A stretch of 64,000 nucleotides of DNA from the NCBI RefSeq assembly GCF_000297775.1, contig NZ_JH815516.1, positions 233,520 to 297,519 of the forward strand, written 5' to 3'. The position numbers and the translations under genes were made by a program. The stretch's first letter is position 1, and the number at the start of each line of letters is the position of its first letter. Under the pieces are notes generated by a model, which was not told the DNA's origin, ran no database searches, and saw nothing but the letters and a program-made list of their open reading frames with translations. This DNA is from Sutterella wadsworthensis 2_1_59BFAA. GTDB taxonomy: Bacteria > Pseudomonadota > Gammaproteobacteria > Burkholderiales > Burkholderiaceae_F. Shown piece by piece: positions 1,538-56,544 of this stretch.

Positions 1538-2206
1538 TTACGCCTTCTTCGTGAGGCGGGCGCCCCAACCGAAGAGCATGGCGGCGATGAAGGCGGCCGC
1601 GACGATGCAGGCGAGGAGGCAGCAGGAGGCCATGTCCATGAACTTCCACTGCGGGATCAGGTACCAGCCGTCGTAGGACTGGTAGAGCTCGATGAACCAG
1701 CGCTGCAGGGCGCCGAGCTCAACGCCGTCGGGCACCACCGGTGCGTCGTAGCCGCAGTCGCCCGTGGGCTGGAACCAGTCCGGAGCCCACTTTTCCAGCG
1801 GAAGGCCGAACGGGAAGTGCGGCTCGGTCGAGCAGCCCTGCATGCCGAACATCGCTTCCGGATCGTCGGAGTGCACGGCGTCATGAATGCCGATGAGCTT
1901 GACCGAGCAGATGATCGTGTAGACGAGGCCGTAGATCGTGATCACGAAGCCGACGAGCTTCGCCCAGACGGCCTTCGGGTCGATCATGGCGATGACGCAG
2001 CCGAGCGCCATCACGAGGTTGCCGTAGCGGATGTAGACGCACTGCTCGCAGGGCAGCATGTGCATCCAGTCCTGAAAGACATAGTGCGCGAGCAGAACCA
2101 TGGCGACCATCGCAAACGCGATGATGCCCCAGGGCCAGCGGGAGTCCTGCCAGTCGGCGAGCGTACGGACGGGATCAGCCGCGAGCCCCTTCATGAATTT
2201 GATCAT
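1538..2206 (-). CDS. dsbI: DsbI, DsbB-like quinone-linked thiol oxidase
   Basis: Inner-membrane protein of 222 residues with four to five hydrophobic segments. The first periplasmic redox pair is visible as LPCEQCVYIR (Cys53, Cys56), the signature of DsbI/DsbB. A second cysteine pair lies in the large periplasmic loop (MQGCSTEP and TGDCGYD). DsbI reoxidises its partner DsbL and passes electrons to quinone. In uropathogenic E. coli the set assT-dsbL-dsbI is one locus, and here dsbL lies immediately upstream on the same strand, with assT further upstream. The start is the ATG at 2206, with AGGA about ten bases ahead. An intrinsic terminator sits between dsbL and dsbI, so dsbI may be made at a lower level or from its own promoter. 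Confidence 0.9.
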   Translation of the reverse strand: MIKFMKGLAADPVRTLADWQDSRWPWGIIAFAMVAMVLLAHYVFQDWMHMLPCEQCVYIRYGNLVMALGCVIAMIDPKAVWAKLVGFVITIYGLVYTIICSVKLIGIHDAVHSDDPEAMFGMQGCSTEPHFPFGLPLEKWAPDWFQPTGDCGYDAPVVPDGVELGALQRWFIELYQSYDGWYLIPQWKFMDMASCCLLACIVAAAFIAAMLFGWGARLTKKA

Positions 2207-2359: not shown

Positions 2360-2408
2360 CCAGGGAGAACCTGTTGGGCCCTGCTCCGCGAAGGCGGAGC
2401 GGCAGGGC

Positions 2409-3059
2409 TTACTTCATTTCCTTGAGTTCCTTGACGAGCTCGACCATGCCGTCGAGGCTGCGGATGCTCTTCGTCATGATCAGGTACTTGCCGTTGACGA
2501 CGTAGGCCGGGATGCCCTGGATCTTGGCGACGTCGTAGGAGAGCTTCCATTCGTCGCACATCGCCTTGACGGCCGGATCGTTCTTGGCTTTGGCGAACTC
2601 ATCGGCGCTGATGCCTGTGGCGTCGGTCATGGTCTTGAGGAAGGCGGCTTCGCCGGAAGTCCAGCGTTCGCCCTTCTTGTGATAGGCGACGTAGACGGCG
2701 TCCTTGGCCTTCTTGAAAAGAGAGTCCTTGGACTCAACGGAGATGCCTGCGGCCTTGTCCCTGAGGAGGCACATGGCGAGGAATTCGCTGCCGATGCGGC
2801 CGTACTTGCCCTTGGTTTCGAGATGGATCGGGTTGAAGGCAAGGCCGGTTTCCTTTTCAATGCGCGGCAGAACCTTCGGGTCGACGCCGACGTCATACTT
2901 GAAGCAGAACGGGCAGTCGTAGCTGAAGATCTTGGTGAGCTTGCCTTCGGCGTTGACCATCGGCTTTTCGAGCTTGACGTAGTCGGTGCCTTCCGTGGCG
3001 GCCATGGAAGCAGCGGCAAAGAGAGAGAGGCCGACGGCAAGCAGAGTCTTCTTGAACAT
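2409..3059 (-). CDS. dsbL: DsbL, thiol:disulfide oxidoreductase for AssT
   Basis: Periplasmic thioredoxin-fold oxidase of 216 residues. It starts with a signal peptide (MFKKTLLAVGLSLFAAASMA), then the active site YDCPFCFKYD (Cys49-Pro-Phe-Cys52). The CPFC form is typical of DsbL rather than DsbA (CPHC). A cis-proline loop (IQGIPAYVV) completes the site. The family introduces the disulfide needed by arylsulfate sulfotransferase, whose genes lie at 6530 and 14404. The frame runs further upstream, but the ATG at 3059 has a GGAGA box 8-9 bases ahead and begins the signal sequence. Its reoxidation partner dsbI follows. A sigma70-like promoter and a C20 tract lie upstream. Confidence 0.93.
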   Translation of the reverse strand: MFKKTLLAVGLSLFAAASMAATEGTDYVKLEKPMVNAEGKLTKIFSYDCPFCFKYDVGVDPKVLPRIEKETGLAFNPIHLETKGKYGRIGSEFLAMCLLRDKAAGISVESKDSLFKKAKDAVYVAYHKKGERWTSGEAAFLKTMTDATGISADEFAKAKNDPAVKAMCDEWKLSYDVAKIQGIPAYVVNGKYLIMTKSIRSLDGMVELVKELKEMK

Positions 3060-3154
3060 TTGTGAGTTTTCTCCAGATGGGTGACGGGTGGTCGGCGGAA
3101 CGTCGGATGTGTGCGGGGCTCGCCTGAACCATGACTGCGAGTTTAGACCTCCCC

Positions 3155-3183
3155 TTTTATTCGGGCTATTGTGACTTTTCCAA
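3155..3183 (-). promoter_or_regulatory. Probable dsbL promoter
   Basis: On the minus strand TTGGAA (3183-3178) is separated by 17 bp from ATAAAA (3160-3155), about 95 bp upstream of the dsbL start. It is the best sigma70-like match in the porin-dsbL gap. Confidence 0.5.
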
Positions 3184-3242
3184 GTACGCACGGCAGGTTG
3201 TGCAAGGCCTTGTTGCAGAAACTACAAAAGGGCCCGCCTCTT

Positions 3243-3262
3243 CCCCCCCCCCCCCCCCCCCC
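3243..3262. repeat. Homopolymeric C20 tract upstream of dsbL
   Basis: Twenty consecutive C residues on the plus strand (G20 in the dsbL sense). The tract is intergenic, about 60 bp upstream of the -35 box of the putative dsbL promoter and just downstream of the porin gene's terminator-like hairpin (stem 3283-3291 with 3310-3318). A tract this long is expected to slip during replication, so its length is likely to vary between cells or assemblies. Confidence 0.9.
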
Positions 3263-3343
3263 TCAGACCGCATGAAGCGAAAGGACCGCCGTCGGCACGA
3301 AGCGGCCGGCGGCGGTCCGAATGTCTCAAAGAGAACGGGAATG

Positions 3344-4489
3344 TCAGAACCGGTACGTGAGGCCGCCCGAAGCGAAGACCTGATTGAAGCGATCGACGCC
3401 GTCAAGAAGGTCGTGACCGTTCGCGTAGGAGGCGCCCGCGTAGAGCTGGGTGCGCTTCGAGAGGTTGTAGTAATACATGAGGCTGCCGATGGCGGCCGTG
3501 CCCTTCGTGTGCTTCATGCCGGCAGAGACGCCGTTCCATTCGGCGTTGACGACGCCGAGGCCGGCGCTGAAGTAATGGAACCCGTAGGGATAGCCGAAGC
3601 TCACGAAGCCCGTCGTGACGTCGAGGCCTTCGGTGCTCTGCGCGAGGTTGTTCACGCCGCTCCCCTTGAGGAGGATGGCGCCTAGGTCGGGTGCGCCGCC
3701 GATGCGCCAGTCGTTCTTGCCCTTGTAGAGAATGCCGGAGACGGCCGGACCGCCGAAGTCCCAGCTGCCGAGGATCGTGAAGCCGAAGCTGTCGTGCTTG
3801 CGGGCCTGCGTCGCGTCGGTGTGCTCGGGCATCTCCCAGTTGAGGAGCGAGCCGATGCGAAGCTGCCGGCCCGTCCAGCCGAAGGCGACCTGAGCGACGT
3901 GGTTGTTGTCGGACCAGCCGTATTCGGTTTCGCTGTCGTTCGAGCCGTTGGTGTAGAGGCCCTGGAGGAAGAAGCCGTCCTTGGCGCGGGTTGCGAAGGC
4001 GATCGTGTTGTCGGACTCGCCCTTGTTGTAGACGATGAGCGCGGGTGCCATGCCTGGAAGTCCCGAGCCCGTCATGTTGGCGCGCAGCTTCTTGAAGACG
4101 GAGTACGGTTCGGACGCGCAGGAGAACGTCGACATGCGGCCTGCGGATACTTCGATGAATTCGTTCCCGACGAAGAGTCGGGCGAGACGGTTGAAGAGGC
4201 GGCTTTCGTCGTAGAGTGCGCCGGAGTCGAGGCTCCAGCCGCTCTCCATCTGGAAGCCGGCGTACCAGCCGTTGCCGAGGTCCTCGCGTCCCATGAGGCC
4301 GAGGTGCGAGTCGGTGGGCGTCTGCTTGTAGGCGGCCATGCCGACGGTGGCGTGGTCGGCGCCTTCGGCCTTCTGGTAATAGAGGCCTGTGGAGACGACG
4401 CCGTAGATCTGGGTTTCGGCAGCTGAGGCGGCGGAGCCGCAGGCGATGAGGGCCGCGCCGAGCGCGGCGACGATGGGCTTGATGGTCAT
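3344..4489 (-). CDS. Trimeric Gram-negative porin in the assT1-dsb locus
   Basis: Outer-membrane porin of 381 residues with a signal peptide (MTIKPIVAALGAALIACG, cleaved after SAASA) and the usual mature start AETQIYGVVSTGLYY. The LGLMGREDLGNGWYAGFQME block is the conserved second strand of betaproteobacterial porins, and the chain ends in an aromatic residue (LTYRF) as the Bam machinery requires. It would let small anionic or aromatic solutes into the periplasm. Before the IS insertion it followed assT1 on the same strand and preceded dsbL, so it is a likely entry pore for sulfate esters or phenolic acceptors. The IS at 4497-6379 ends seven bases from the ATG (the target duplication), so the native upstream region has been displaced. 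The new junction happens to supply an AGGA box 6-7 bases before the start. Confidence 0.9.
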   Translation of the reverse strand: MTIKPIVAALGAALIACGSAASAAETQIYGVVSTGLYYQKAEGADHATVGMAAYKQTPTDSHLGLMGREDLGNGWYAGFQMESGWSLDSGALYDESRLFNRLARLFVGNEFIEVSAGRMSTFSCASEPYSVFKKLRANMTGSGLPGMAPALIVYNKGESDNTIAFATRAKDGFFLQGLYTNGSNDSETEYGWSDNNHVAQVAFGWTGRQLRIGSLLNWEMPEHTDATQARKHDSFGFTILGSWDFGGPAVSGILYKGKNDWRIGGAPDLGAILLKGSGVNNLAQSTEGLDVTTGFVSFGYPYGFHYFSAGLGVVNAEWNGVSAGMKHTKGTAAIGSLMYYYNLSKRTQLYAGASYANGHDLLDGVDRFNQVFASGGLTYRF

Positions 4490-4524
4490 GTTGGATCCTA
4501 AAAGTCGTCTAATGCGGCCACGAT

Positions 4525-6240
4525 TCAACTGACACCAAGCAGCTTGAGGAATAGCTGATCGCGTTTGGTTGTTTCCGTGGCCCATTTGGAAGCACTGTCG
4601 TTACCTGTCGTAGCAACGTAGTCGACGCAACGGAACCAATCAAGAATTTGAATCAGTGAGTGCTGATCGAGCCAAGCAAGCAGCTTTTCTTCGAGATTCA
4701 ACTCTTCCTTCGTTTTCTTTTCAGTGCTCTTTTGGGCAAGCCCCTTTTTCACATCCTGAATTCTCTTCGTCAGGAAGCAGTGATAGCCCAGCCCGACGAA
4801 TTGTGCGAATTGTCTGCCGTAAAGGTTTTCCGGATACCACGTTCTGGGCTTGCGTCCGTCGAAGCTGTCCTTGTAGGTCGCGAACAACTCTTCAATCTTT
4901 TCGCGGGAGCGGTATGCTTTCAGAGCTTCAAAGGGATCGCAAATTTCGTTGCTCACGAGGACAAAGTACCCCCAGTATCGCTTGGCTTCTTCGATCTTTT
5001 CATTCTTGAAGGAAACCTTGACGCCTTTGCTTGTGCGCTTCACGATGAGGAAGTTGTCGATCAGCTTCTGGGCGGCAGGTCGGAATTCTTCAACACCATC
5101 TTCCAAATCTTTCTTGATTGAAAAAAGGCTCTCCTTGAGACGTCTTTCTTGAATCGGAGCTGCTTCCGGCTTGTAACAAACATGAACATACAATCGCCGG
5201 GTGAATGTTTCAGTCTGTCCTGCTTCGTAGTTGCCGCGCGTGCGCTGACGAACGATGCTGAAATCGTGCTGGCGACGACGCATGACGGCATTGACACCGA
5301 CATCAAACGGACAGGAATTTTCGAAAGCGCCAATCTCTTCGCGAACAGCATCAATTTCTTCACGAACCCATTTGTCGGTGCTGTTGGCGAGCATCAGGAA
5401 CTTCACGTGCTCCCGCGCGAGGTACGTCATGTTGGCCTGACAGTAAAAGCCGTTGTCAGCCACGATAACCGGTGCAGAGAGACCCAGCACCTCAAGCTGC
5501 CGTAGAGAATTTGCCAGCGAGATCTTGTCCGGAATGTTTCCCGGCTGCTTGCTGAAAGCTACCGGTTCTCGATTCTCAACTGAATACAGGACCAGAAGCT
5601 TGATCGTATCCAGTCCGTCGCCATCCTTGTTGAATCCCTGACGCGCTTCGATTTGATTCTTCGAATATGTAGAAAAGGTCGTTGTGTCCAGAGCCAAATT
5701 CAAGCCCGACGAGGAAACTCTTTGAGCACGGCTTCGAAAATAGGCTTGCACGCCTGACTCATTACGTCCGACAGACGCAAAAAGCTTGCCGTACACATCC
5801 TGCGTGATGGGGTACTCGTAAGGCAACGGATTCATCATCTGCCACGTCTCCATGCGAGGCAGCGTATCACCATCAGTGGCAACCCAATATCGGGCGATTG
5901 AACTCAATTTCTGAGCCTCCCCAATCTCGAAGCATGTCTTCAGATCCTCATCGATGCCCGATTCCTTTCCGGCCCATTCGAGAATTGTCTGCAGTCCGAC
6001 ATGCGTGCGCACAGCTTCAACCGGAGGCTCTACAACCTCAGAACGCGATTTTTTGGGGCGAGTCGGGATCATTTCCGTCGTTCCGGCCAGGATTTTTCCA
6101 AGAAGTCGGGTAGAGATCGTCTTGGTTTTCTGCGTCTTGGCGTCATATCCGGTGACGCGTTCATACACGTAAACATCGCCATTCGGGCGGGTGTCACGAC
6201 GAATTCCAACATGCTTTTTTCCAGTGAGAGGACGTCCCAT
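4525..6240 (-). CDS. IS1634-like DDE transposase
   Basis: Protein of 571 residues that moves the element. Catalytic-type acidic residues are visible in LALDTTTFSTY, VIVADNGFYC and SREKIEELFATYKD, the latter typical of IS4/IS1634-type transposases. The ATG at 6240 (MGRPLTGKKHVG) is preferred over the TTG four codons upstream because GGAG lies six bases ahead of it. The gene ends 28 bp from the element's left end, so read-through would run straight into the porin gene. No lesion is seen. Its codon use is much less GC-rich than the host genes, which fits recent acquisition. Confidence 0.9.
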   Translation of the reverse strand: MGRPLTGKKHVGIRRDTRPNGDVYVYERVTGYDAKTQKTKTISTRLLGKILAGTTEMIPTRPKKSRSEVVEPPVEAVRTHVGLQTILEWAGKESGIDEDLKTCFEIGEAQKLSSIARYWVATDGDTLPRMETWQMMNPLPYEYPITQDVYGKLFASVGRNESGVQAYFRSRAQRVSSSGLNLALDTTTFSTYSKNQIEARQGFNKDGDGLDTIKLLVLYSVENREPVAFSKQPGNIPDKISLANSLRQLEVLGLSAPVIVADNGFYCQANMTYLAREHVKFLMLANSTDKWVREEIDAVREEIGAFENSCPFDVGVNAVMRRRQHDFSIVRQRTRGNYEAGQTETFTRRLYVHVCYKPEAAPIQERRLKESLFSIKKDLEDGVEEFRPAAQKLIDNFLIVKRTSKGVKVSFKNEKIEEAKRYWGYFVLVSNEICDPFEALKAYRSREKIEELFATYKDSFDGRKPRTWYPENLYGRQFAQFVGLGYHCFLTKRIQDVKKGLAQKSTEKKTKEELNLEEKLLAWLDQHSLIQILDWFRCVDYVATTGNDSASKWATETTKRDQLFLKLLGVS

Positions 6241-6264
6241 AATCTGCTCCAATGGTGTACCTGT

Positions 6265-6294
6265 ATTATATTATAGGTGCACTATTGGAGTCAA
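6265..6294 (-). promoter_or_regulatory. Transposase promoter of the IS1634-like element
   Basis: On the minus strand TTGACT (6294-6289), an 18-bp spacer and TATAAT (6270-6265) give a near-consensus sigma70 promoter 25 bp upstream of the transposase start. It points through the transposase toward the porin. Confidence 0.75.
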
Positions 6295-6295
6295 T

Positions 6296-6324
6296 AAAAA
6301 GTCCGTGTGTTTCACGGACTTTTA
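6296..6324 (-). terminator. Incoming-transcript terminator inside the IS
   Basis: An 11-bp perfect stem (AAAAGTCCGTG 6297-6307 with CACGGACTTTT 6313-6323), U-rich on its exit side in the minus direction, lies between the IS end and its promoter. It should stop transcripts arriving from assT1, a common device in insertion sequences. It also cuts the porin and dsb genes off from the assT1 promoter. Confidence 0.75.
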
Positions 6325-6529
6325 GTTTAAAAGACCTACTCCCAACAGGGTTTCGTGGGGTCTTTCGACGACTTTTAGGGTTGGATACGGAGGAAGGATC
6401 AATGGGGGCCCGCGGGAGGTCCCGTCCGAGGAGAACGGGCGCGGGGTCATGAGGCGGGAGCGCCCCGGAGGGCGCCCCCGCTGCACTCGGGGTGAGGAGG
6501 CGTCCCCGGGCGCGTTTCAGCAGGAAGCC

Positions 6530-8350
6530 TTAGTGCGTGAAGGCCTTTTCGACGCTGATCGGCATGGCCTGATAGCCGAAGAGCTTGTTGAACTGCAGTT
6601 CGACTGCGGGCTTCGTTTCGCCCCAGCGGTATTCGCAGAGGTACGGATGGGAGGATTCCTCGCGGCTGGCGTCCTTGCCGGCCGAGGGGCCGAGCAGACC
6701 GGCGGTCGAGTAGAAGACGACCATGGAGTTCTTGTCGGCCTGGTACTGCGTGATGCCGGTGACCGGGCTGAAGTACTCGTTGCCGAGTTCCTTGCCGACT
6801 TCCCAGAGCTGCTGGACGGTCATGTTCTTCTGGTTGATCTTGTAGATGACGCCGCGGGTGTACTTCATGGACGGGATGGGCGGCTGCTCAAGACCGCGGC
6901 CGTCGCCGTTGTCAAAGACGGAGAGGATGACGGTGTTCTCGTCGGACTTGGAGTCGATGCGGAACGCCGTGTGCTGCGTCCAGGTCCAGTCGAAGTCGCC
7001 CTCGCACTTGCCGTCTTCGCACTTGATCGGCTTGCCGTTCTTGTCGATGGGCTTGAGGACCTTGGCGGCGAGTTCCTTGTTCCAGCCGTCCGGAGCGGCA
7101 AGGATCCACTTCACCTCCTTGTCGCGGCCGATCTTGACGCAGGCGGACTGATGGCGCGAGGAGATGATGATGGAGTCGTCACTCGGGTCGTAGTCGACGG
7201 AGTTGACATGGGCCCAGTTGCGGCCAGCGCCGACGCCGGTGATGTCGCCGAACTTGTCGGACGCTTCCTGCTTGGCGAGTTCTTCCGCGGAAAGGGTCTG
7301 ACCGGACTTGGAGGCATCGATGTTGAGGCAGACGGCACCCTGGTCGAGCGTCTTGATGACGTTGTCGCGATACGGATCAAGGATGTCCATCAGGCGCCAG
7401 TCGTCGACCACGCGACCGTCACGGTCGATTTCGACGATCACGTCGCGGACAGTGTGGACGCGCTTGCCGTCGGGACGGCGGTAGTCGGAGGAGCCCACGC
7501 GCAGGAAGCTGTGGCCGTTCTGGGCGTTGTCAAAGGAGTGCGAGTAGTCGGAGTAGCCCGCAGGGAGACGACGATCGAAGATCTTGCGGCCGATGAGGTC
7601 GTACTTGGCGTAGTTCTGGCCGTAGCCCCAGGTGAGCGCACCGTCCTCGGTCTGCTGGAAGCCCATGAAGTAGCCGGACTTCCACGGGTTTTCCGTGTCG
7701 CCGATTTCCTGGTCGAGGAGCCACCAGCGGATTTCGCCCGTGGTGTCGATGATGCCGATGTTGGAGTTGAAGGCCCATTCCACGGCACCGCCCGAAGGGT
7801 TGTTCCAGGTGAAGCGGGAGCCGAGCGGAACCGTGCTCTGCAGCTGGCTGTTGATGAGATAGAGACGGTCCTGGAATTCCTTGTCAACCTTCTTCACCTT
7901 GACGTCGAAGGGACGCGTCTGGTTGGGCATGCCGGTCGAGAGCGTGTAGACGCCGGGGGTGTAGAAGCGGTAGGTGTCGGTGAACTTTTCGCTCTTGCCC
8001 TGATGGGTGCGGGTGTAGCTCACCTCGACTGTGTTCTGCCAGTCGGGATAGAGACCGAAGACGGGCACGCCCGCGTGCGTCTTGAGCTCGGTGCGGGAGA
8101 CCTTGTACTTGATCTCCTGGCCCTTGGCCTTCGGGACGATGCGGACCGTGACGTCGGAGAGTTCGTAGCCGCCGTCGCGGATGACGGCGGTGAGCGGAGC
8201 CACCTTGTAGGGATTGACGATGACTTCGCCGATGTGGCCCTGGACGGGATAGCCGACGTGGGGGCCCGAGGGGCCGCCGGAGGCGAGCGCCGGGGCGCTG
8301 ACGACGAGAATGGCGAGCGAGGTCGCGGCTGCGAGGATGGATTTCTGCAT
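6530..8350 (-). CDS. assT: Arylsulfate sulfotransferase 1 (periplasmic)
   Basis: Protein of 606 residues, the usual AssT length. A signal peptide (MQKSILAAATSLAILVVS, cleaved near APALASGG) is followed by an N-terminal beta-domain and a six-bladed propeller. The enzyme transfers sulfate from one phenolic ester to another phenol without PAPS, through a sulfated histidine. The catalytic histidine is in DWTWTQHTAFRI (His460), and eleven residues before it lies a cysteine pair (KCEDGKCEG) matching the disulfide made by DsbL. The ATG at 8350 has GGAAAG in front. A LysR gene lies directly upstream on the same strand, and porin, dsbL and dsbI lie downstream beyond the IS. A closely related copy is at 14404. 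Confidence 0.93.
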   Translation of the reverse strand: MQKSILAAATSLAILVVSAPALASGGPSGPHVGYPVQGHIGEVIVNPYKVAPLTAVIRDGGYELSDVTVRIVPKAKGQEIKYKVSRTELKTHAGVPVFGLYPDWQNTVEVSYTRTHQGKSEKFTDTYRFYTPGVYTLSTGMPNQTRPFDVKVKKVDKEFQDRLYLINSQLQSTVPLGSRFTWNNPSGGAVEWAFNSNIGIIDTTGEIRWWLLDQEIGDTENPWKSGYFMGFQQTEDGALTWGYGQNYAKYDLIGRKIFDRRLPAGYSDYSHSFDNAQNGHSFLRVGSSDYRRPDGKRVHTVRDVIVEIDRDGRVVDDWRLMDILDPYRDNVIKTLDQGAVCLNIDASKSGQTLSAEELAKQEASDKFGDITGVGAGRNWAHVNSVDYDPSDDSIIISSRHQSACVKIGRDKEVKWILAAPDGWNKELAAKVLKPIDKNGKPIKCEDGKCEGDFDWTWTQHTAFRIDSKSDENTVILSVFDNGDGRGLEQPPIPSMKYTRGVIYKINQKNMTVQQLWEVGKELGNEYFSPVTGITQYQADKNSMVVFYSTAGLLGPSAGKDASREESSHPYLCEYRWGETKPAVELQFNKLFGYQAMPISVEKAFTH

Positions 8351-8585
8351 TTTTCTTTCCGTTTGGTTGCCGGCGTTCTCTGATTCGAGCGCCGTACGGG
8401 CGAAGCGTCCGCAGTGACGGACGCCGCGCCCGGGGTGAGGCTTCCGAAGGCCTGTGCAGGGGGCTTTCGGAACACGGAGAAAATTGTAGAAACGGCGGCC
8501 CGCGCCGCCTAGAGACGGATTCCCGCCTTCGGCGGCCATGGGGTGCAAGGGGCCGTTGCACGCCGTGCGTGCGGGACGGGGGACT

Positions 8586-55840: not shown

Positions 55841-56544
55841 ATGCCGGAGAGCCACGCCGTCCTTGTCGTCGAATTCACCGGACCGTCCGTCTCGGACGGA
55901 ACCCTCTGCACGGACCGTCTTGCGCCGTCGCTTCTCGCGCTGAGCGACGCGCTCAGGTTCCTCAACCGTCTGGTCAATCCCGACGGCGTCGAGGCGGGTC
56001 TTTCCGTCACGAAGGCCGAAGGCGGACGCTTCGAGCTCGGCCTCTTGGTCTGGCGCACGTTCGAGAACCAGATCGCCTGTCTCGCCGACTGTCTCGTCGA
56101 GATCCTTGCCCTCAAGAAGTGGCTCGAGGGCGGCACGGACGCTGCCTTTGCGTTCAATCCCGCGATCGGGGGGGGGGTGAAGTGACGGCGGGCGACAGGC
56201 GTCTTGCCGTTTCGGGCGGCGCCTGGATCGGCTTTCGCGACGCCGAGTGCGGCGCGGCCTGCTCGCGCGTGGCGGCCTCGCTCTCGACGCCGGGCGTCGA
56301 CGCCGTTCTGTGTTTCTCTCAAAACAGGGCCTTCGAGCTCGTAGCTTCGGGCCGCAGAATCCGCGTTTCGCTCGGCGAACACCATTCGTTCACGGCCGTC
56401 ATGAAGGACGATGCCTTCAACAGCAGGATCGTCGCGGGCGACATCCTCGTCGTCGACCTGCGCGTCGTCCAGCGCATGGCGGGCGGCACGCTCCTCGTCG
56501 AGCGCGAGATCGTCAAGGTGCGCGAGCACCGTCCAAACCACTGA
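55841..56544 (+). CDS. Uncharacterised protein, probably phase variable at a G10 tract
   Basis: Two halves in different frames meet at a run of ten G (56168-56177). Half 1 (55841 to the TGA at 56183) encodes VLVVEFTGPSVSDGTLCTDR, LAPSLLALSDALRFLNRLVN and CLVEILALKKWLEGG. Half 2, in the frame one base back, encodes VTAGDRRLAVSGGAWIGF, then EHHSFTAVMKDDAFNSRIVA and GDILVVDLRVVQRMAGG, ending at 56544. With 8 or 11 G the halves join in one frame of about 235 residues; with 10 G the product stops after 114 residues. The pattern (LAPALLAL-like start, LKKWL, final AxIxDxxF-GDxL) recalls a family of uncharacterised proteins often near mobile DNA; this is a weak, memory-based match. GGAG lies eight bases before the ATG. 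An IS5 element sits 25 bp upstream. Confidence 0.7.
56168..56177 (+). repeat. Homopolymeric G10 tract inside a gene
   Basis: Ten G at the exact point where the reading frame breaks. The tract's length decides whether the two halves of the gene at 55841-56544 are read together (8 or 11 G) or not (9 or 10 G). Confidence 0.92.

Follow-up and report, generated by a model that had tools for sequence, protein, structure and literature searches.

The dsbL gene of Sutterella wadsworthensis 2_1_59BFAA, coding for a DsbA-family thiol oxidase, is preceded by an uninterrupted run of 20 C residues. The run lies in the 64,000-nucleotide stretch analysed here (contig NZ_JH815516.1, positions 233,520 to 297,519, hereafter the window). 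The tract is of a slippage-prone kind and is, with a modest degree of confidence, considered neutral for dsbL. Phase variation through such tracts fits the genus Sutterella but, on present evidence, not dsbL.

The tract would have grown by slippage within the spacer that separates the 3' end of the porin gene from the dsbL transcription start, and its length probably varies between cells because runs so long slip during replication. Transcription of dsbL would begin at a promoter well downstream of the tract, where the best candidate -10 element is TAAACT at 3145-3140, and changes in tract length would leave dsbL output largely unaltered. The tracts that do have the anatomy of contingency elements in this genus form another class, in which an AGGGWT box is directly followed by C8-C12 and an autotransporter or porin gene mostly begins 65-151 bp further on. 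Neutrality is suggested because this box is absent at dsbL, the orientation is opposite and the tract is 183 nt from the start codon. The last point relies on a rule used in PMC1891110, by which a tract more than 150 nt before a start codon is unlikely to overlap a promoter, and overlap is therefore improbable for the dsbL tract as well.

The twenty consecutive C residues reported in a sequence-only reading of the window were confirmed, as the tract occupies 3243-3262 exactly, with a T on either flank. The coding strand of dsbL reads it as G20, with 183 nt to the ATG (first base 3059). All other C runs in the window have at most 5 residues and all other G runs at most 6, except a G10 at 56168-56177. 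Under Markov models (orders 1-4) fitted to the window, runs of at least 20 would be expected no more than 6.2e-6 times in 2.72 Mb, the size of the genome. Between 0.2 and 5.5 runs of at least 10 are expected, varying with the order, so that an excess at 10 depends on the model whereas the excess at 20 does not. The run is thus longer than chance predicts, as is typical of homopolymer contingency loci. The length of 20 is the value from one assembly.

The surroundings of the tract comprise the following features:

3243-3262, no strand: C20 homopolymer, G20 on the dsbL coding strand (from the sequence)
2409-3059, minus strand: dsbL, DsbA-family thiol oxidase of 216 amino acids with a CPFC active site (PF01323, 34.3 bits, cut-off 25.6)
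1538-2206, minus strand: dsbI, membrane partner of dsbL (NCBIfam NF003304, 298.1 bits, cut-off 212)
3344-4489, minus strand: porin gene, Porin_4 (PF13609, 83.1 bits, cut-off 27)
3283-3318, minus strand: GC-rich hairpin past the porin stop, possible terminator with a poor U tail (RNA folding)
3154-3183, minus strand: promoter-like pair TTGGAA ... AATAAA/TAAAAG, probably the promoter of the sequence-only reading (chance level)
3140-3145, minus strand: TAAACT, candidate -10 for dsbL, without a -35 (resembles CCTAAACT / CCTATACT, by eye)
4497-6379, minus strand: IS1634-family insertion sequence (IS) between assT and the porin gene (GTTGGAT repeat at 4490-4496 and 6380-6386)
6530-8368, minus strand: assT, arylsulfate sulfotransferase, start codon chosen by the analyst (PF05935, 427.4 bits)

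All genes and the IS element are on the minus strand, and the order along the dsbL strand is porin stop, GC-rich hairpin, G20, 183 bp and the dsbL ATG. The dsbL product has its CPFC motif at residue 49, and its best PDB sequence matches are 3c7m and 3l9u (E about 1.5e-65). It scores below the cut-offs of both NCBIfam DsbA models matched, and the name DsbL is given because of the place beside dsbI and assT. A DsbA-family sequence, a CxxC motif and an adjoining dsbI, as expected of DsbL, are all present.

Several other origins of the tract were considered and rejected. It is not within a coding frame, as both the porin gene (ending ...GGLTYRF, stop at 3344) and dsbL (start at 3059) stop short of it. 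The mechanical open reading frames (ORFs) that span it (3131-3685 on the plus strand, 3166-3405 on the minus strand) are regarded as shadows. The same applies to a 137-amino-acid frame antisense to the porin gene that starts 9 bp past the tract, with a codon score of 34 against 143 for the porin. A remnant of the IS element is not indicated, with the end of the element 1.2 kb off and the flanks read at three other copies free of such a tract. Loss of mismatch repair was rejected as the cause because mutS1 is present in the strain's own genome (G000, 2.72 Mb in 11 contigs) and in the Sutterella genomes G001 and G011.

The promoter question is central to whether tract length could affect dsbL. 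The sequence-only reading placed the best dsbL promoter about 60 bp from the tract. The promoter probably meant (TTGGAA-16-AATAAA or TTGGAA-18-TAAAAG, with its -35-like hexamer at 3183-3178) is 59-60 bp away, but it has 8 of 12 consensus bases. When the 183 bp were shuffled by mononucleotides 500 times, 328 of the shuffles scored as high or higher. A sigma-70 scan at 9/12 gave no site on either strand of 2400-4200. The candidate -10 at 3145-3140 is 97 bp from the tract. Of the motifs it resembles, CCTAAACT precedes the second dsbL of the same genome and CCTATACT precedes several dsbL-like genes of relatives. On the porin-ward side of the tract there are the hairpin and the porin 3' end, with no recognisable activator site. 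A tract between an activator site and a -10, as in fim-type systems, is thus not recognisable here from the sequence, the candidate -10s being 81-97 bp away. Nor is the tract adjacent to a -35 as in a sabA-type rheostat, given the 59-60 bp to the best -35-like hexamer.

Comparison with other species (one genome per species) suggests that the arrangement is local. Matches to dsbL were found in 10 of 12 genomes of the genus, and upstream regions were read at 16 loci including the one in the window, leaving out two fragmentary matches in G007. None of the 15 other dsbL-like loci has a C or G run of at least 9 upstream in the stretches fetched. Among 37 named loci, which partly represent the same places, there was one run of at least 8 (L072, a G9 located 3.1 kb past the match end). 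In G009 and G010 a dsbL with 85% identity begins 74 bp behind assT, without a tract. Therefore, the long spacer with its tract is peculiar to the strain studied among the genomes read. The assT-porin pair is also present in G011, there without dsbL behind it. Shared ancestry of the spacer was also rejected, as no second copy of it was present among the candidates scored, 40 out of 123 in G000 and at most 25 in each of the 11 further genus genomes. The 196 bp upstream of dsbL in locus L041 share only chance-level matches of 7-10 bp with the spacer. No second strain came up in the searches, one of which may omit very near records and another of which, on viral contigs, gave no matches.

The same genome has another dsbL-dsbI pair, on contig 7 (52% identity to dsbL; DsbI model 276 bits, cut-off 212), which would buffer any effect of the tract on dsbL. 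There are also seven AssT-like matches, on contigs 1, 4 and 8, and together with the second pair they indicate that sulfotransferase folding may survive loss of this dsbL. The sequence-only reading had proposed a knock-on to sulfotransferase activity, which is weakened by the second pair. Four of the seven AssT-like matches are located within about 23 kb of contig 4, inside and beside the window.

Long C or G tracts are a property of the genus and extend beyond it. The genome of the strain has 35 runs of at least 7, 12 of at least 9, 9 of at least 10 and 5 of at least 12, the five longest being 20, 15, 13, 12 and 12 (overlapping matches merged). Tracts of at least 10 were found in all nine genus genomes drawn (3 to 25 per genome) and in 43 of 61 genomes of the family. 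The surroundings were read for all 12 tracts of at least 9 in G000, for 21 of the 25 tracts of at least 10 in G011 (three were not fetched and one was past the stretch end) and for 14 of 14 in G001. Gene starts near the tracts were called by a codon-usage script and not by a gene finder.

Six of the 12 tracts in G000 are located 89-384 bp upstream of type V secretion genes. An autotransporter barrel was found at L165, L166, L169 and L170, a YadA anchor at L167 and an ESPR with a subtilase domain at L168. At L170 the gene is broken by an IS element and the barrel is on the far side, and at L165 a C6 with an AGGG box is closer to the gene than the G10. The genome has 15 autotransporter-barrel matches, and the chance of at least six of 12 tracts being near type V genes is about 2e-13 with 15 genes, or 1e-11 if 30 are assumed, given a limit of 450 bp that was set after the data were seen. 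The remaining six are the dsbL tract, L163 in or beside a split ORF, and L161, L162, L164 and L171 without a clear target.

An AGGG box (AGGG followed by two A/T, at most 14 nt upstream of the C run on the C strand) was found at 14 of the 47 tracts in the three genomes. At thirteen of these, the ORF that follows on the C strand either has an autotransporter barrel or begins like an ESPR, six with Pfam support (L166, L169, L170, L187, L190 and L203) and the other seven by N-terminal likeness. L197 had no match in the Pfam scan. The fourteenth (L194) is before a porin in the other orientation. The box is lacking at 33 of the 47 tracts, including L165, L167 and L168 before type V genes in G000 and, for example, L173, L178, L181 and L188 before autotransporters or porins in G011. 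At L188 (contig 42, close to the contig end) a C32, an A and a C20 follow each other upstream of the porin gene. The dsbL tract has no such box, being preceded by AGGGCCCGCCTCTT, and it has G on the coding strand, where 13 of the 14 boxed tracts have C.

The pattern AGGGWT followed by 0-4 bases and C6 gave 46 raw matches in 10 Sutterella genomes, compared with 3 for the reversed pattern. These represent 22 distinct sites in nine of the ten genomes, and 18 of the sites precede an autotransporter-like or porin ORF (Pfam for part; L197, L226 and L244 had no match in the Pfam scan and were assigned by likeness). The other four are three C6 runs without such a gene and L217, where no ORF was found downstream. 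For 17 of these 18 sites the distance from the run to the called start is 65-151 bp, and L190 has an uncertain start at 414. When nine hand-chosen promoters were aligned, the majority consensus had a second stretch, AGGGTTTnCnCTACACATAC, with its AGGG about 65-70 bp upstream of the box; this stretch is missing in some rows, including the promoter from G000. A TAGGAT is present 15-17 bp past the run in four of the nine (L189, L198, L202 and L203, by eye). The module, an AGGGWT box and C8-C12 with a second stretch AGGGTTT..CTACACATAC further upstream in most of the nine aligned, was observed at L192, L197, L198, L199, L202 and L203 in G001, at L177, L189, L190, L223, L237 and L244 in G011 and at L166 and L169 in G000. 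The paralogous autotransporter promoters L223 and L237 (contigs 7 and 22 of G011) have C11 and C9, respectively, but their flanks are identical over 100 bp upstream and differ at one of 50 bp downstream. The AGGGWT box with C8-C12, C on the coding strand, is a candidate phase-variation module of the genus.

Some observations weigh against neutrality at dsbL. Half of the 12 tracts in G000 precede surface genes, and three of these (L165, L167 and L168) have no box, hence a tract without the box may still be functional. In G011, tracts with G on the coding strand are located 181 and 185 bp before porins, and one in G001 is 306 bp before a porin, so a second class may exist. Since mutS is present, a functionless tract of 20 needs tolerance. 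The start of dsbL transcription is still only a candidate position.

Control of dsbL by tract length is unlikely, though the likeliest of the rival explanations. An upstream activator or a site for the C-terminal domain of the RNA polymerase alpha subunit (alpha-CTD) would be phased with the downstream promoter, and slippage would switch or tune the gene. The tract is long, slippage-prone and 183 bp before the ATG, and the tuning of promoters through the length of a poly-C or poly-T has been described elsewhere (PMC10172299 and PMC4081817). The chance given to this explanation is due to the boxless tracts before surface genes, autotransporters among them, and to the G-on-coding tracts at 181, 185 and 306 bp before porins. 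The sequence-only reading had likewise raised the possibility that tract length alters the spacing between activator sites and the promoter, as it does in other bacteria. The tract is of the right kind for this, the genus has poly-C before surface genes, and the C11 and C9 twin promoters are consistent with it. However, the promoter is at chance level, the region beyond the tract has the hairpin and the porin end and no recognisable activator site, there is no AGGG box, the orientation is opposite and the other dsbL-like loci of the genus have no tract (0 of 15 with at least 9). A broader version, in which a genus-wide AGGG-box and poly-C programme switches autotransporters and porins through spacing changes as in Bordetella, and the dsbL C20, of the G-on-coding class, makes folding capacity vary from cell to cell along with the surface repertoire, is a long shot.

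It is rather improbable that the tract acts as a barrier, with G20 in a read-through transcript or in the non-template strand halting or slowing RNA polymerase together with the hairpin, so that dsbL is insulated and the length sets the leakiness. The porin gene and dsbL are in tandem, and the 83-nt stretch 3263-3345 with the hairpin, which immediately precedes G20 in the direction of transcription, has a folding energy of -36.1 kcal/mol (z -3.8). On the other hand, the fold of the hairpin joined with the tract does not surpass that of shuffled sequences (z 1.1, with a program presumed not to model quadruplexes), there is no Rfam match at gathering scores in 2400-4600, the U tail is poor and the hairpin 3283-3318 is not listed in a terminator scan. 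Long homopolymers are the least reliable portion of an assembly, and as the genome is a draft in 11 contigs, the cells might carry a shorter run that was sequenced or assembled as 20. This is very improbable in view of five separate tracts of at least 12 in the same genome and tracts of at least 10 in 43 of 61 family genomes, including the single-contig G001 and G003. Neutrality remains the preferred explanation for the dsbL tract.

One-base changes in the C-stretches of fim2, fim3 and fimX in Bordetella pertussis alter transcription with involvement of BvgA (PMC1891110 and PMC10172299). The dsbL tract resembles these in being a long intergenic poly-C in a betaproteobacterium, but the candidate -10s are 81-97 bp downstream of it and no activator site is recognised on its far side. 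Closer to the fim layout is the Sutterella autotransporter module, with an AGGG box, poly-C and 15-17 bp to TAGGAT (4 of 9 promoters, by eye). Helicobacter pylori sabA (PMC4081817) likewise has a mononucleotide tract in intergenic DNA before its core promoter. That tract is a poly-T adjoining the -35, and UP-like elements are found on its far side, whereas the tract of dsbL is G/C and 59-60 bp from a -35-like hexamer. The locus itself is like AssT-DsbL-DsbI clusters, with assT, dsbL and dsbI on the same strand and a DsbI model above cut-off, but unlike in G009 and G010, where assT is directly before dsbL, a porin gene and an IS element intervene.

The IS1634-family element is flanked on both sides by a 7-bp repeat, and 7 bp separate its end from the start codon of the porin gene downstream. 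Three more full-length copies and one partial copy are found in the genome, all with 100% identity. The insertion therefore looks recent, and it may alter porin expression. The G10 at 56168-56177 is where two ORFs in different frames meet and overlap (about 55841-56185 and 56182-56544). The arrangement might represent a switch within a coding tract or else a gene in decay. The ORF at about 55841-56185 had no Pfam match.

In the literature searched, judged by titles and abstract starts, nothing on the subject was found for Sutterella together with phase variation, autotransporters or simple sequence repeats, nor in a wider search that included Burkholderiales, and no paper is known to link phase variation to periplasmic folding. 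A dsbL switched by tract length would allow a single lineage to alter the folding of several sulfotransferases together. Even without switching of dsbL, a recurring poly-C promoter module is exposed before autotransporters and porins of gut commensals, which makes phase variation in the genus directly testable.
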